This document shows, piece by piece, positions 30,213 to 35,095 of a stretch of 64,000 bases of DNA; positions within the stretch are counted from its first letter, which is position 1, and the number at the start of each line of letters is the position of its first letter. The translations under genes were made by a program, and so were the position numbers. The DNA comes from Thermococcus sp. LS1. GTDB taxonomy: Archaea > Methanobacteriota_B > Thermococci > Thermococcales > Thermococcaceae. The DNA is taken from assembly GCF_012027395.1 (NCBI RefSeq), contig NZ_SNUJ01000002.1, positions 310,001-374,000 on the forward strand. The letters run 5' to 3'. Under the pieces are notes generated by a model that saw nothing but the letters and a program-made list of their open reading frames with translations, was not told where the DNA came from and ran no database searches.

Positions 30213-30258
30213 GGCTCACGTTTATTAGCCCGTTGACGAACTATTAACGGTGGCAAAA

Positions 30259-30540
30259 ATGGATGAACTTTTCGAGGCTGTTAAGTCTGAGTACGGGGTT
30301 GAGATAAAGGATGAGAGTGATATGACCAATGCGTGGAAGCTCATCGAGGCACTCGAGGAAAGGGGATGGGTAGTCTACATAATCACTGCTAAAGACAGAA
30401 AGCAAGTCGATGCGTGGCATCCGAACTACGGAAGCTTATATGCTCAGTTTGGGGATATTCCAACGTTTGGAAGCATAATTGAGGAAATTTGTGCCGCTGC
30501 TCTGCATATAAGGGAGCTTGAGAAGAATGGAACGGTGTGA
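30259..30540 (+). CDS. Conserved-looking small protein, unknown
   Basis: 93 residues with a mixed alpha/beta profile: DELFEAVKSEYGVEIKDESD, WKLIEALEERGWVVYIITAK, DIPTFGSIIEEICAAALHI. There is a single Cys and no recognised motif. ATG 30259 is chosen because GGTGG stands just upstream; GTG 30250 lies within that site. Codon use is like that of its neighbours. Confidence 0.65.
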   Translation: MDELFEAVKSEYGVEIKDESDMTNAWKLIEALEERGWVVYIITAKDRKQVDAWHPNYGSLYAQFGDIPTFGSIIEEICAAALHIRELEKNGTV

Positions 30541-30601
30541 AACGTACTTTTCACAGGATTCCTCAAATAGGTTGAGCCAGTAGGTATGAACGGTGATGCC
30601 G

Positions 30602-31804
30602 ATGGTAGGCACAAAGTGGGGGGCACTTGCCCTCGTCCTGTTGCTGCTTGGAAGCGTCGTTCCACTGAGCATGGCCGAAGACAACGCCACTGCAAGCGAT
30701 GCAACCCTTCTGGACAACAGCACCAGGGAGATGGTGATAGCGGAGCAGCTCATTAACCAGCTGCAGAGGCTGAGTAAGTTTGCTGAGGATAAGATAGAAC
30801 CTATTAAGGACAAGCTGCCCGAGAATTCCAGCATATTGGCCAACTATGAAACCGCAGAGGAATATAAGGACAGAGCTATCAGTGAATACGAGGCTGGCGA
30901 TTACTACAACTCAATCCTGGACAGCCTGACGGCGATGCACTACTACAAGCTCGCCCTCTCGAGACTTCAGGAAGCGGCAGATAGGGTTCAGGATCTCAGG
31001 GAGCGCATCAGGATCGAGACGGAGAGGATGATGGAGTACTTCCAGATGGTCGAGAAGACCATCAGGTTCGCCCAGAACCAGGGGATCGACGTGAGCAATC
31101 TAACTCAGCTTTACAACGAGACCAAAGAGGCATACAAGCTCGTCCTCGATGATCTGAAGGCCGGAGACATAGAGAAGGCCAAGGCTGACTATGAAGCCGC
31201 CAAGGAGAAGAAGGCCCTACTTGACGAAGAGCTGAGGAAGGTTCGCGAGAAGCTCGCCTATGCCAACGCAGATAAGATAGTCCAGGAGTTCCTCATCAAG
31301 GGCGAGAAAGGAATAGAAATAGCCCAGCAGGCAATCGAGAAGGCCCGGGAGAACGGCTATAACGTCACCGAGCTCCAGGAGAGACTCGATGCCTTCGTCG
31401 CGGTGTACAATGAGGTGAAGACCCTTGCCGACGAGGGCAAGTGGGAGGAGGCCCTCAAAGTAATGGATGAAAACAGAGAAACCATCAGGGAATTCCAAAA
31501 AGCCATTGAGTTCATTAGGATGAAGGTCTACGAAAGGGAGCTCGAGGAGAAGCTCAAGGACGTGAGAGCATTCCTCATGGAGATGAAGAACAGGATTGAG
31601 AAGGATGCCAAGGCGCTGGCCGAGCTCAAGAGGGAGGGCGTGGACACCATCCCCGCGGAGATTCAGCTGAAGGTCGCGGTGCAGGAGCTCAGGATCGGCG
31701 TTGAACTCCTTAAGGACAGGAAGCCGCTCCAGGCCAAGGCTCATTTCGCAATAGCCCTGGACATGCTCCACAGGGTCGACGAGTTCATCCTTGCCCATGC
31801 ATGA
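30602..31804 (+). CDS. Secreted helical-repeat protein, first copy of a duplicated module
   Basis: 400 residues: signal peptide (about 1-25, WGALALVLLLLGSVVPLSMA), then a nearly all-helical, highly charged chain with coiled-coil character. Repeating units of roughly 100 residues share a pattern like QNQGIDVSNLTQLYNETKEAY, then a loop such as LKAGDIEKAKADYEAAKEK. Another is RENGYNVTELQERLDAFVAVYN and ADEGKWEEALKVMDE. Several N-glycosylation sequons. No catalytic motif and no C-terminal anchor. The next gene, 38 bases downstream, encodes a membrane-bound winged-helix protein, and the pair is repeated at 32846-35095. GGTGATG precedes ATG 30602. Confidence 0.82.
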   Translation: MVGTKWGALALVLLLLGSVVPLSMAEDNATASDATLLDNSTREMVIAEQLINQLQRLSKFAEDKIEPIKDKLPENSSILANYETAEEYKDRAISEYEAGDYYNSILDSLTAMHYYKLALSRLQEAADRVQDLRERIRIETERMMEYFQMVEKTIRFAQNQGIDVSNLTQLYNETKEAYKLVLDDLKAGDIEKAKADYEAAKEKKALLDEELRKVREKLAYANADKIVQEFLIKGEKGIEIAQQAIEKARENGYNVTELQERLDAFVAVYNEVKTLADEGKWEEALKVMDENRETIREFQKAIEFIRMKVYERELEEKLKDVRAFLMEMKNRIEKDAKALAELKREGVDTIPAEIQLKVAVQELRIGVELLKDRKPLQAKAHFAIALDMLHRVDEFILAHA

Positions 31805-31842
31805 CCTTTCCCTTTTTTCATTTGATTTGGAGGGATGCTTAA

Positions 31843-32691
31843 ATGGAGAGGAAGTCGCTCGTGATATTCATGATAACGGCTCTCATTCTCGTTCCGGTGG
31901 TTAGTGGAGAGTATACCGTCTCGTCTCTGGTTCTGACCGTCTACGAGGACGGCTACGTTAAGGTTGAATACGAGCTCCTCCCCGCTGATTACGCCTCTCA
32001 AATTGAGGTTTCCCTCCTCGGAGAGCATTATGAGAACCTCTTTGTAGAGGATGAGAACGGGAACCCCCTGAACTTCCGGCTAGATAACGGTAGCCTTTTG
32101 ATTTACTCAGAGGATGCCCAGGTCGTCAGGGTCTCCTATTATACCCCCGACTTAACATCCAAGGAGGGCATTGTCTGGACACTCAAGGTTTCGTCTGAGA
32201 GTCCTTTCACCGTGGTTCTCCCAGAGAACTCCATAGTGGTTGACCTGAGTGACATTCCTCTTGAAATAGCAGGCGACTCCATAACTATGCCTTCCGGAAA
32301 TCAGAGCGTCTCCTACACAATCCAGTATACGGGAACTTCTGAGAGGAACTCGTCGAACTACCTCCTCATTGCTCTCCTCGTTGGTGCTGCCACGGTTGGG
32401 AGTATAGTCGCATATCTCATCAAAGGGAGAGGCAGCGGGAGGGTGGAAAGACCCAAGCTCACGCGCGAGGAGTTTGAGAGGAGGCTTGAGGGACTCGAGC
32501 TAAACGATGAGGAAAAGAGGGCCCTGCTCTATATCTTTGACAAAGGCGGCAGAGCGAGTCAGGCGGAGGTACGGGAGGCCATTGGACTTCCCAAAACTAC
32601 TGCCTGGAGGATGTTCAAGCGCCTGGAGCGGAAAGGGCTGGTGAAGGTTATAAAGGGCAGAAAGGAAAACTGGGTGGAGCTGAGGTTTTAA
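31843..32691 (+). CDS. Membrane-anchored winged-helix regulator with extracytoplasmic domain, copy 1
   Basis: 282 residues. Signal peptide (about 1-22), extracytoplasmic beta-rich domain (23-170, beginning YTVSSLVLTVYEDGYVKVEY and ending with VDLSDIPLEIAGDS and MPSGNQSVSYT), one membrane helix (about 172-193), then a cytoplasmic winged helix (about 220-282: GGRASQAEVREAIGLPKTTA, WRMFKRLERKGLVKVIKGR). The topology suggests a one-component sensor that moves a signal from outside to DNA. Its partner is presumably the secreted protein encoded just upstream; the ligand and target promoter are unknown. GGAGGGATG lies before ATG 31843. Confidence 0.85.
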   Translation: MERKSLVIFMITALILVPVVSGEYTVSSLVLTVYEDGYVKVEYELLPADYASQIEVSLLGEHYENLFVEDENGNPLNFRLDNGSLLIYSEDAQVVRVSYYTPDLTSKEGIVWTLKVSSESPFTVVLPENSIVVDLSDIPLEIAGDSITMPSGNQSVSYTIQYTGTSERNSSNYLLIALLVGAATVGSIVAYLIKGRGSGRVERPKLTREEFERRLEGLELNDEEKRALLYIFDKGGRASQAEVREAIGLPKTTAWRMFKRLERKGLVKVIKGRKENWVELRF

Positions 32692-32799
32692 CCAGAACAT
32701 GAGTTTCTCTAGCCTTAAAAGTTTATTTCTGGCCTTTCAATTTCTAATTTCCCCTATGGAAACGTGGGGAAACGTTCTGAAACACGAAAATTCCAGCGG

Positions 32800-32812
32800 G
32801 TTCCTAATATAT
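32800..32812 (+). promoter_or_regulatory. TATA element for the second module copy
   Basis: CCTAATATATTAG lies about 35-45 bases before ATG 32846 and is palindromic, so it could also hold an operator. A T-rich run upstream (32722-32731) may end the first module's transcript. The intergenic stretch 32692-32845 shows nothing else. Confidence 0.45.
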
Positions 32813-32845
32813 TAGTCGTGCCTAATCATTATCAAGGTGAGAGCC

Positions 32846-34081
32846 ATGAAGATGAGTATGAAAACATTGTTGGTGCTCTTTATAGGGGCACTGATACCCC
32901 TTAGCACTGCAGCGTGGGCTGCCAGTGTAAACGCTACTGAGACCACCAACGTTACTGCACCAGCCAACGGAACCCTGTTAGTAAATGCTACCAACATGAC
33001 CAACGTCACGAACACCACCAATACTAGCCTCCAGACAGCGGCGTATAACCTCCTGATTATAGTGGATAACGTCGCGAACTACACTGCCAATATGATAGCC
33101 GATCTCAACGTGAGTAACGTTACCTTGCCAAACTGGACATTGGAGGCATATTACCAAGCGGAGACAATGAGGAAAGAGGCGTGGGATCTTTACTATGCAG
33201 GAAATTATGAAGGGAGTATAAACGCATCGATGTCTGCACTAGAACTCTACAAGGAGGCAGTTGAAGAACTAATGGACTACTACACAGATCACCAGGAACA
33301 CCAGATAGAGGAGCAATATGAGTACTATGAACTCATTATGGAGGCTAAGGAAGAACTCAACAGGGCAGCTGAATACTTCCCGTATGTTGAGAAGGTAATT
33401 AAGGAGGCTCAGGCTGAAGGCCTCAACGTTACCGCTGTTGTAGAGCTCTACAACCAGACAAAAGAGGCTTATCTAGTGGTTGCCCAGGACATCGCCAACA
33501 CCGACGGCAACATAACGAAGCTTGAGAACGACCTTGATTATGCAGAAGAGCTCATGGACAAGCTCGAAGACGCCGTTGAGGAGCTGACCGAGCAGATAGT
33601 GGACGCCAAGGCAGAGGAGATAAGCTATGCCTTCATGGAAAAGCTCCAGGAACAGATGAAGCTCATGCAGGAGTTAATGGCCATGCTCCAGAACTCTACT
33701 ATCATCAACGCAACTTATCTAGCGGAAGACTTTGCGGAGTTGCAGATGATGTACGAACAGTTTACCCAGCTCGTTGAGAGTGGTCAGTACGAGGAAGCGC
33801 TTGATATGCTCCACGACATCAACGAAGAGCTCAAGGACATAGTCGACGAAACCAAGGAGATTGAGAAAGAGATGCACGAAGAAAAGGAGTACGATGATGA
33901 GTATGAGGACGATGAGAGCCACGACGACCAGAATGAGGACTACAAGGCGGATGACCAAAGTGGAGACTACGAAGAACATGATGACCACGAAAGCGACGAT
34001 GGCCAGTATAATGACTCGGACGAGGGAAGTAGTAGCGACGACTACGAGGATGAGGACTACAGTGATGAGGAGGACGAGTGA
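32846..34081 (+). CDS. Secreted helical-repeat protein with acidic tail, second copy of the module
   Basis: 411 residues. Signal peptide (about 1-28), an Asn/Thr-rich segment with many sequons (NATNMTNVTNTTNTS), a long helical region with repeats like LNVTAVVELYNQTKEAYLVV and YYAGNYEGSINASMSALELY, and a 72-residue tail (about 340-411) made almost wholly of Asp, Glu, His, Ser and Tyr (for example DDEYEDDESHDDQNEDYK). The acidic, His-containing tail could bind Ca2+, other metals or basic surfaces. It is paralogous to the 30602 protein, which lacks this tail. AGGTGAG precedes ATG 32846. Confidence 0.82.
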   Translation: MKMSMKTLLVLFIGALIPLSTAAWAASVNATETTNVTAPANGTLLVNATNMTNVTNTTNTSLQTAAYNLLIIVDNVANYTANMIADLNVSNVTLPNWTLEAYYQAETMRKEAWDLYYAGNYEGSINASMSALELYKEAVEELMDYYTDHQEHQIEEQYEYYELIMEAKEELNRAAEYFPYVEKVIKEAQAEGLNVTAVVELYNQTKEAYLVVAQDIANTDGNITKLENDLDYAEELMDKLEDAVEELTEQIVDAKAEEISYAFMEKLQEQMKLMQELMAMLQNSTIINATYLAEDFAELQMMYEQFTQLVESGQYEEALDMLHDINEELKDIVDETKEIEKEMHEEKEYDDEYEDDESHDDQNEDYKADDQSGDYEEHDDHESDDGQYNDSDEGSSSDDYEDEDYSDEEDE

Positions 34082-34141
34082 ACGTCCCTTTTTTACTCAT
34101 ATTTTTTAAGGTGATTCTCTCAACTTCTTGGGGGTGTTGGG

Positions 34142-35095
34142 ATGAAAACAAAGGCAGCGGTGGTACTCGCAATTGCAGTCATGCTCTTGCCCCTTGTCGC
34201 GGGGCAGTACACCATCACGTCCATCAGCATTACCGTATATGCCGATGGATACGTTAAGGTAGTTGAGGTTATCCAGCCGGAGAACTATACTGTAAGCGTT
34301 GCTATTCCCCTTCTTGCGGCCAACGTTGAGGGCCTAGTCGTTATTGATGAAAAGGGCAGTCCTTTGCCCTATGAAATAAATGGCTCCAAGCTCATCGTGT
34401 ATTTTGAAAACGCCACTGGCATTAAGATAACCTACTACACCCCCGACCTGACCGTCAAGAACAGGGCCATATGGAGCGTCCGTGTTAGCTCAAATATACC
34501 TGTCAAAATAACTTTTCCCGAAAATGCTGTCATTGTTGACCTGAGCGACATCCCCCTCGAGATAAACGGCAACTCAATCGTCATGCCTGCGGGCAATCAG
34601 ACGGTTTCCTATGTTCTGGAATACCTGCCAGCTGGGACAGAGACGGCCCAGACACAGACTACCCAGTCCATCTCGGGAACATCTGCCTCTGAAAGTTTCG
34701 TTAACTCCACCGCACCCTCAACCACTGGCTCGTCAACTGAAACCCCCTCGGGTGGCTCCACCAGCTGGGCGACGATTGGAATACTCGCTCTCCTTGCCCT
34801 CGCCATAGGCGGCTTCATCTACCTGAAGGGGGGTAGGGAAGAGAGCGGATCGGCACCAAGCATCAGCAGGGAGGACTTTGAAAAGAGGCTCACGGAATAC
34901 GACTTGACAAAGGATGAAGAAAAAGCACTGCTTTATCTTTTCGACAGAGGCGGAAAGGCAAGGCAGTCCGAGGTCAGGGAGACGCTCGGAATCCCGAAGA
35001 CAACTGCCTGGAGAATGTTTCAGAGGCTCGAAAAGCAGGGCCTCGTGAGGGTCTACAAGAAGAAGAGGGAAAACTGGGTGGAGCTCAGGCTTTGA
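34142..35095 (+). CDS. Membrane-anchored winged-helix regulator, copy 2
   Basis: 317 residues, paralogue of 31843-32691: signal peptide, extracytoplasmic domain (YTITSISITVYADGYVKV, VDLSDIPLEINGNS, MPAGNQTVSY), a Ser/Thr-rich stalk (about 165-208) absent from the first copy, one membrane helix (about 209-228) and a winged helix (about 255-317: GGKARQSEVRETLGIPKTTA, WRMFQRLEKQGLVRV). The DNA-binding domain is more conserved between copies than the sensor side, so both may bind related DNA. ATG 34142 follows GGGGGTGTTGG. Confidence 0.85.
   Translation: MKTKAAVVLAIAVMLLPLVAGQYTITSISITVYADGYVKVVEVIQPENYTVSVAIPLLAANVEGLVVIDEKGSPLPYEINGSKLIVYFENATGIKITYYTPDLTVKNRAIWSVRVSSNIPVKITFPENAVIVDLSDIPLEINGNSIVMPAGNQTVSYVLEYLPAGTETAQTQTTQSISGTSASESFVNSTAPSTTGSSTETPSGGSTSWATIGILALLALAIGGFIYLKGGREESGSAPSISREDFEKRLTEYDLTKDEEKALLYLFDRGGKARQSEVRETLGIPKTTAWRMFQRLEKQGLVRVYKKKRENWVELRL

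Follow-up and report, generated by a model that had tools for sequence, protein, structure and literature searches.

A secreted helical-repeat protein paired with a membrane-bound winged-helix sensor in Thermococcaceae and Nitrososphaeria: a candidate kinase-less route from the archaeal envelope to DNA

Two tandem hel-sensor pairs

This study concerns two adjacent gene pairs in a 64,000-nucleotide stretch of the 2.0 Mb genome of Thermococcus sp. LS1 (hereafter the window; G000:C2:310001-374000). At positions 30593-35095 four open reading frames (ORFs), all on the + strand, form two tandem pairs. Each comprises a gene that we call hel, encoding a signal-peptide protein of helical repeats, followed by one that we call sensor, for a protein with a beta ectodomain, one membrane helix and a cytoplasmic winged helix. 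An operator-like element precedes each hel. The features are as follows, in window coordinates:

30529-30569, + strand: promoter element of hel1, an operator-like composite, GGAAC-N5-GAAAC-N16-TCCTCAAATA; one of the two exact composite sites in this genome (G000:C2:340529-340569)
30593-31804, + strand: hel1, predicted secreted all-helical repeat protein of 403 amino acids (ORF, AlphaFold2 model, hydropathy, genus homologues)
31843-32691, + strand: sensor1, 282 amino acids (ORF, Pfam, AlphaFold2 model, hydropathy, genus homologues)
32759-32811, + strand: promoter element of hel2, operator-like, three GAAAC repeats at 10-bp spacing, then TCCTAATATA at 32802-32811
32837-34081, + strand: hel2, predicted secreted helical-repeat protein of 414 amino acids (ORF, similarity to hel1, hydropathy)
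34142-35095, + strand: sensor2, 317 amino acids (ORF, Pfam, similarity to sensor1, hydropathy)

The hel1 element consists of two direct repeats 10 bp apart and a TATA-like box at 30560-30569, and the hel2 element occupies G000:C2:342759-342774 and 342769-342811 of the contig. Alternative in-frame starts of hel1 lie at 30596 and 30602, the latter being the coordinate used in an earlier note made from the letters of the window. That note had described two adjacent pairs of one architecture, and the description holds, as the four ORFs share a strand and both proteins are homologous between the pairs (sensor2 against sensor1, 266 bits and 46% identity; hel2 against hel1, 59 bits and 25% identity). 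The motifs it quoted for the sensors (YTVSS/YTITS, VDLSDIPLEI, MPSGNQ/MPAGNQ and PKTTAWRMF) were all found in the translations. A chance likeness of the two pairs is excluded, because the homology and the conserved neighbourhood are overwhelming.

Predicted architecture of the two proteins

Both sensors begin with a signal peptide. In sensor1 this is followed by the beta ectodomain (31900-32331), a transmembrane (TM) segment (~32365-32421) and the winged helix (~32464-32682). In sensor2 the ectodomain (34196-34627) is followed by a Ser/Thr-rich linker, the TM segment (~34769-34825) and the winged helix (~34889-35086). By a simple hydropathy rule, both have an N-terminal hydrophobic segment and a later TM segment followed by basic residues, and it is because of these residues that the C-terminal winged helix is placed inside the cell. 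Residues 50-68 of sensor2, inside the beta domain, form an extra stretch that passes the rule. Both hels are hydrophobic at the N-terminus and show no TM segment further on. The same rule was applied to 86 pairs (59 genomes), drawn from the window and fetched family loci with a minimum length of 250 amino acids for sensors and 280 for hels; the sensor layout held in 81 of them and the hel layout in 74.

Pfam placed a TrmB/MarR/DUF7343-type winged helix at the C-terminus of both sensors, with TrmB above the cut-off (E 1.7e-8 and 1.5e-8), and PF01978 was matched by 48 of 48 sensors at E<=1. Among matches at E<=1, no TrmB effector domain was found in the window sensors and no histidine kinase or receiver domain in any of the four window genes. 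NCBIfam gave nothing above its cut-offs for the five proteins scanned. The AlphaFold2 model of sensor1 (pLDDT 89.7, pTM 0.55) places strands within residues 24-160, a helix at 173-195 that is long enough for a membrane crossing, and the winged helix at 208-280. MarR-type structures aligned with residues 218-282 at Z about 10-11 (VIA-align).

The nearest solved fold of the modelled ectodomain is that of oligosaccharyltransferase (OST). In VIA-align a yeast OST chain matched the sensor1 ectodomain at Z 13.2 and 2.6 Å over 142 residues with 12% identity. Yeast rows as a group scored Z 13.2, 13.0 and 12.7 over about 140 residues, and human rows Z 11.3-11.7 (18% identity for the 11.7 row), with which the N-domains of M1/M61 peptidases tie at Z up to 11.3. 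We take the yeast chain to be Ost1 (residues 231-445) and the human chain is presumably ribophorin I. The top Foldseek row for the sensor1 model had an E of 1.9e-6. An ectodomain profile found a single match at E<=10 among PDB sequences, which was not an OST chain, and a Pfam scan of 48 ectodomains returned 20 families, ribophorin not among them. DUF4897 matched 4 of the 48 (best E 0.0015), a weak link. The reading frames of the sensor in one fetched locus (L106) and of both sensor and hel in another (L109) are broken or split, for which decay and sequencing error are both possible.

The hel1 model is all alpha (pLDDT 88.7, pTM 0.59) and may be read as four repeats, each a long helix, a 22-residue helix and a further helix. 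Foldseek gave it no convincing PDB match (best E 0.38), and Pfam reported nothing above cut-off in either window hel. TPR_2, among the best 25 of 47 families, matched 5 of 54 hel members at E<=0.01, with the window hels below cut-off. Hel2 carries 19 N-X-S/T sequons and a long Asp/Glu/His-rich C-terminal tail (~33854-34078). Met/Trp/Asp-rich hel tails were seen in pairs L108/L263 (NZ_CP014751.1), L095 and L187, which adjoin a heavy-metal P-type ATPase gene and an ArsR/SmtB-like regulator gene, and a T. peptonophilus plasmid carries two hel-sensor pairs within a heavy-metal island.

Conservation of the pair in Thermococcaceae

Homologues of hel1 and sensor1 (E<=1e-5) were found in at least 57 and at least 59 of 61 genus genomes, respectively. 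Profile searches extended this to at least 84 of 94 family genomes for hels (E<=1e-8) and at least 92 for sensors (E<=1e-6). Sensors were also found in at least 99 of 115 phylum genomes (E<=1e-10). The pairs remain adjacent in related genomes, the first check that the earlier note had proposed, with conserved gene order and tight spacing. Of 150 sensor matches listed for the 94 family genomes, 126 are immediately preceded by a hel match in the same orientation, no more than 420 bp away; with matches longer than about 640 bp alone, the count is 113 of 135. These counts are for Thermococcaceae, families f2 and f4 of the class being left out; pairs recur outside the family, as described below.

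Fourteen of the 24 sensor matches that had no listed upstream hel were broken down. Three are true pairs in which a long hel tail extends beyond the profile match (G025:C4, which is L095; G085:C19, L187; G021:C2, L108), three are at the end of a contig or next to a fragmentary hel (G076:C142, G080:C20, G022:C22), three have a divergent hel directly upstream (L177, L181 and L183; E 1e-6, 7e-7 and 8e-4), one has its hel about 8 kb away (G071, L124), and four, taken up below, stand alone. Conversely, 24 of 150 listed hel matches have no adjoining sensor match among those listed. Ten of these stand alone in the fetched regions (L151-L160); others are the three long-tail pairs (L095, L187, L108) and contig-end or broken fragments. 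The L216 hel adjoins an ectodomain-TM protein that has no winged helix.

Pairing outside the family

Among the matches listed, the sensor profile was found in 4 of 4 genomes of family f4 of the class, 4 of 5 of f2, 2 of 2 of f5 (weakly) and 0 of 10 of f3. In f4 the hel and sensor genes overlap by 11 bp (L142, L145, L168, L169), and in f2 the hel lies upstream of the sensor (L141, L143, L144, L167). Three of the f2 hels were examined with single-repeat profiles, and all three were confirmed (best E 1.6e-14 for L141, 1.7e-11 for L144 and 7e-12 for L167).

A sensor of Nitrososphaeria, used as query, has matches in 38 of 61 genomes of that class, which cover the ectodomain in 27 and the winged helix only in 11. 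In all 13 loci inspected (L265-L277, the best ranked after the query's own and all of family f8), and in L146, the order is reversed, so that the sensor comes before what by eye is a secreted helical protein, whose gene overlaps the sensor gene by a few bases. By eye, a small helix-turn-helix (HTH)-like gene precedes the sensor in the same loci. Profile-profile comparison of Thermococcaceae and Nitrososphaeria gave E 2.4e-60 for the sensors and 8.8e-12 for the hels (13 Nitrososphaeria hels, L268 left out), and column-reversed, heptad-block-shuffled and coiled-coil controls for the hel match reached E 0.14 or worse. Six of 14 Nitrososphaeria sensors carry a hairpin of ~60 residues with a hel-like pattern between ectodomain and TM segment, whose likeness to the hel repeats is suggestive. 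Overall, these sequence comparisons suggest that the two-gene module is an old archaeal pairing, and the observation reaches further than the earlier note described.

Co-divergence of the partners

In the 86 pairs, distances between hels correlate with those between ectodomains at r 0.931 and with those between winged helices at 0.78. When partners were shuffled within genomes, which acts on the 23 genomes with two or more pairs, the ectodomain correlation had a mean of 0.419 and a maximum of 0.716, and none of 2000 shuffles reached the observed value. In 48 of 50 cases the nearest foreign ectodomain picked the right hel among those of the same genome. This co-divergence, together with the hairpin in Nitrososphaeria sensors, points to possible contact between hel and ectodomain.

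The promoter element

The consensus of the hel promoter, read from 35 hel upstream regions, is GRAAC-N5-GRAAC-N14-19-CCTNANATA, and the element usually lies about 61-77 bases 5' of the hel start. The earlier note, which proposed a search for a common promoter motif, made no mention of the elements before the two hels; such a motif does exist, in that this GRAAC composite element is found 5' of both window hels and of many relatives' hels. Among 991 control upstream regions in the same loci, none reached 17 of 19 positions and two reached 16. When further loci were added and the left half was relaxed, 17 was reached by 78 of 119 Thermococcaceae hels and by 4 of 1060 controls, and these four may include genes fetched for carrying the element. 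A perfect direct-repeat half was present in 96 of the 119 hels and 5 of the 1060 controls.

Across the 94 family genomes, 95 exact composite sites were found in 62 genomes (reversed pattern, 1), 86 of them within 200 bp 5' of a hel match. The window's own genome has exactly two, one 5' of each hel, and a broad regulon of exact composite sites is thus ruled out. The repeat half alone, GRAACGNNNNGRAACG, also occurs there exactly twice, both times at a hel promoter (control, 0). Of the nine composite sites outside these 86, one (L217) is followed by a short ORF with a hel-profile match (E 4.6e-6), and two more, in L095 and on the T. peptonophilus plasmid, by short ORFs, of which that in L095 is hel-like by eye. 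After the remaining six (L215, L218, L219, L221, L222, L223) lie a small gene divergent from what we take to be a HypE-like gene, a gene for a membrane protein that is glycosyltransferase-like by eye, and a presumably DUF257-like gene; the genes after these sites are possible further regulon members.

The element is kept before standalone hel L151 and before the hels of L171-L176, where the sensor has no winged helix, and because of this the hel genes look like the common target. Of 80 element-bearing pairs, at least 72 have the exact PKTTAWRMF. Promoter flanks are partly shared by descent among the pairs, and the element is kept in L123, L138 and L139 despite a changed sequence on its left. 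Just 5' of the hel1 promoter the window has a 96-amino-acid ORF (30250-30540); DNA similar to this region precedes hel1 in many relatives, with the exception of L123, L138 and L139, which keep the promoter element.

Discussion

We consider it somewhat likelier than its negation that each pair forms a circuit from envelope to DNA that regulates itself and needs no kinase, hel being both a product and the likely ligand of the sensor. The reading draws on the pairing, the co-divergence and the element, which lies mostly before hel genes, together with the predicted topology and fold. In such a circuit hel would be an exported helical solenoid that works on the outer side of the membrane, and the tails of some sub-types look as if they bind cations or metals. 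The sensor would expose a ribophorin-I-like beta domain outside and hold its winged helix inside. The ectodomain, which most likely senses its hel partner, would read the occupancy or level of that partner, distinguishing free hel from hel engaged with a stress-exposed surface, a metal or a protein. Its state could then be relayed through the single TM helix to paired winged helices, which would bind GRAAC repeats one helical turn apart, immediately 5' of the TATA-like box that serves the hel-sensor operon. Such a placement suggests activation; directly upstream of the TATA box is where archaeal activators act, as in the glycolytic regulators of Thermococcales. We infer the DNA binding by the winged helix, the contact between hel and ectodomain, the direction of regulation and the signal, and with them the role that the earlier note gave to hel, namely that it gates or titrates the sensor. 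That the signal is metal or envelope stress is a guess.

Several observations weigh against this circuit. The hel promoters themselves served to define the element; no exact composite site was found in 32 of the 94 family genomes, and none of nine hels outside Thermococcaceae has the element. Seventeen of the 119 Thermococcaceae hels lack even 9 of 10 positions of the direct-repeat half; these include nine of the ten standalone hels and the hels of three divergent pairs next to metG-like genes. The repeat half GRAACGNNNNGRAACG was unspecific in six genomes, where 8 of 18 matches preceded hels and the reversed control gave 4. A palindromic operator, GRAACGNNCGTTYC, was rejected: it occurs at 6 places in six genomes, 3 of them before hels, compared with 11 for the reversed control, and its sole place in the window's own genome (G000:C1:737748) is away from the hels. 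Exact PKTTAWRMF is also present in three of six pairs without the element, the other three differing by one or two residues, and since the recognition helix is alike with and without the element it fails to explain the element's absence. The hairpin matched one of four hel repeat profiles weakly, at E 0.0094, and by profile comparison reached a probability of 4.7% (E 0.0084); single-repeat hel profiles missed the L146 hel, the one Nitrososphaeria hel tested (best E 0.88). Block duplication alone would give much of the co-divergence without contact, so the co-divergence shows the pair evolving as a unit and not the proteins touching. Finally, four of the unpaired sensors truly have no adjacent hel (L180, L182, L184, L190), and in L171-L176 and L216 the ectodomain-TM protein encoded next to hel stops immediately behind its membrane helix. 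The module may do more than signal, because such operons without a winged helix, as well as standalone hels and sensors, occur. The four lone sensor genes were seen directly after, or overlapping, a small HTH-like gene that we take to resemble DUF134.

A rather unlikely though serious alternative is that hel is regulated output only, a surface or metal-binding envelope protein, and that the sensor autoregulates while sensing metal, membrane state or misfolded protein directly, with no hel contact. The promoter element does precede the hel genes, lone sensors exist, and one sub-type, in the heavy-metal island of the T. peptonophilus plasmid, lies by a metal P-type ATPase gene and ArsR, with Met/Trp/Asp-rich hel tails. 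However, three findings are easier to understand with contact: the pairing across phyla in reversed gene order, the closer fit of hel distances to the ectodomain than to the winged helix, and the hairpin inserted in some sensors. It is improbable that hel and ectodomain instead form a structural or chaperone surface complex, with the winged helix in a secondary role and some other, soluble factor reading the element. The conserved operons of hel and an ectodomain-TM protein without a winged helix (L171-L176, L216) would fit such a complex, as would the OST chain as nearest fold, the few non-hel genes with the element and the unchanged recognition helix in half of the six pairs without it. Against it, the winged helix is kept in 86 pairs (a set chosen for sensors of at least 250 amino acids), PKTTAWRMF is conserved in element-bearing pairs and exact composite sites fall mainly at hel genes.

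That the element is no operator at all, and merely a strong shared core-promoter type inherited with duplicated operons, is highly improbable in our estimation. The pairs are paralogues with flanks partly shared by descent, as this would require, yet the element persists where the left sequence has changed (L123, L138 and L139 versus the others) and exact composite sites are rare elsewhere in the 94 genomes. The self-regulated circuit also has a bolder form, which we regard as unlikely: the secreted solenoid would be the dedicated ligand of a ribophorin-I-like single-pass receptor with a transcription-factor tail, in an autogenous GRAAC loop, with part of the ligand built into some Nitrososphaeria receptors and a receptor domain that shares ancestry with ribophorin I of eukaryotic OST.

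Each part of the module is of a known kind, a winged-helix one-component regulator and an exported helical protein. For the domain order, the secreted partner, the promoter element and the cross-phylum span, we found no description in the literature searched, most subscription papers being outside it. A search by presumed locus tags brought up papers on TK1460, by our reading a neighbouring gene. How archaea relay information across the envelope without histidine kinases is largely an open question, and the pairing and its promoter signal suggest how the cell surface could control its own genes without a kinase. The module is widespread in the family, where it often carries its own promoter signature, and turns up again in Nitrososphaeria and in further families of the class. 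Because it is widespread and often marked by its own promoter, and because Thermococcus includes genetically tractable species, ligand, receptor, operator and regulon could be tested together in such a species.

Comparison with known systems

The closest working analogy is with CpxP-CpxA and ZraP-ZraS of enterobacteria, in which an exported helical protein is encoded with, regulated by and feeds back on a membrane sensor, ZraP being linked to metal. The arrangement would here be compressed into one component, with hel contact as its inferred counterpart; no sequence relation is claimed. Those systems use a histidine kinase and a response regulator, whereas the hel-sensor pair is kinase-less. 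The DNA-binding domain of the sensors belongs to the same superfamily as that of TrmB/MarR-type regulators (PF01978, PF01047, DUF7343). TrmB has an N-terminal HTH followed by a sugar-binding effector domain; in the sensors, by contrast, the winged helix is C-terminal and, as predicted, membrane-anchored with an ectodomain. Ribophorin I has two luminal domains and no winged helix. The modelled sensor ectodomain resembles one luminal beta domain of ribophorin I/Ost1 (the chains presumably matched), but it gave no sequence-profile match and the sensor bears a winged helix.

Among archaeal regulators, the membrane-bound arCOG00381 protein adjoins haloarchaeal pili genes and, like the sensors, is tied to surface genes by genomic context; the comparison is by description only, and the accessible part of that report mentions no secreted helical partner (PMC4858521). 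ArnR and ArnR1 of Sulfolobus acidocaldarius are also membrane-bound one-component regulators, archaeal and HTH-containing with no histidine kinase, and their sites of action are short promoter repeats of a surface-structure operon, as we propose for the sensors (PMC6396743). As given there, ArnR has an N-terminal HTH, a putative HAMP and sensing domain and two C-terminal TM helices (PMC6396743). The sensors differ from it in having, by model and hydropathy, an exported beta ectodomain, one TM segment and a C-terminal winged helix, and in being encoded with the gene of a probably secreted partner.

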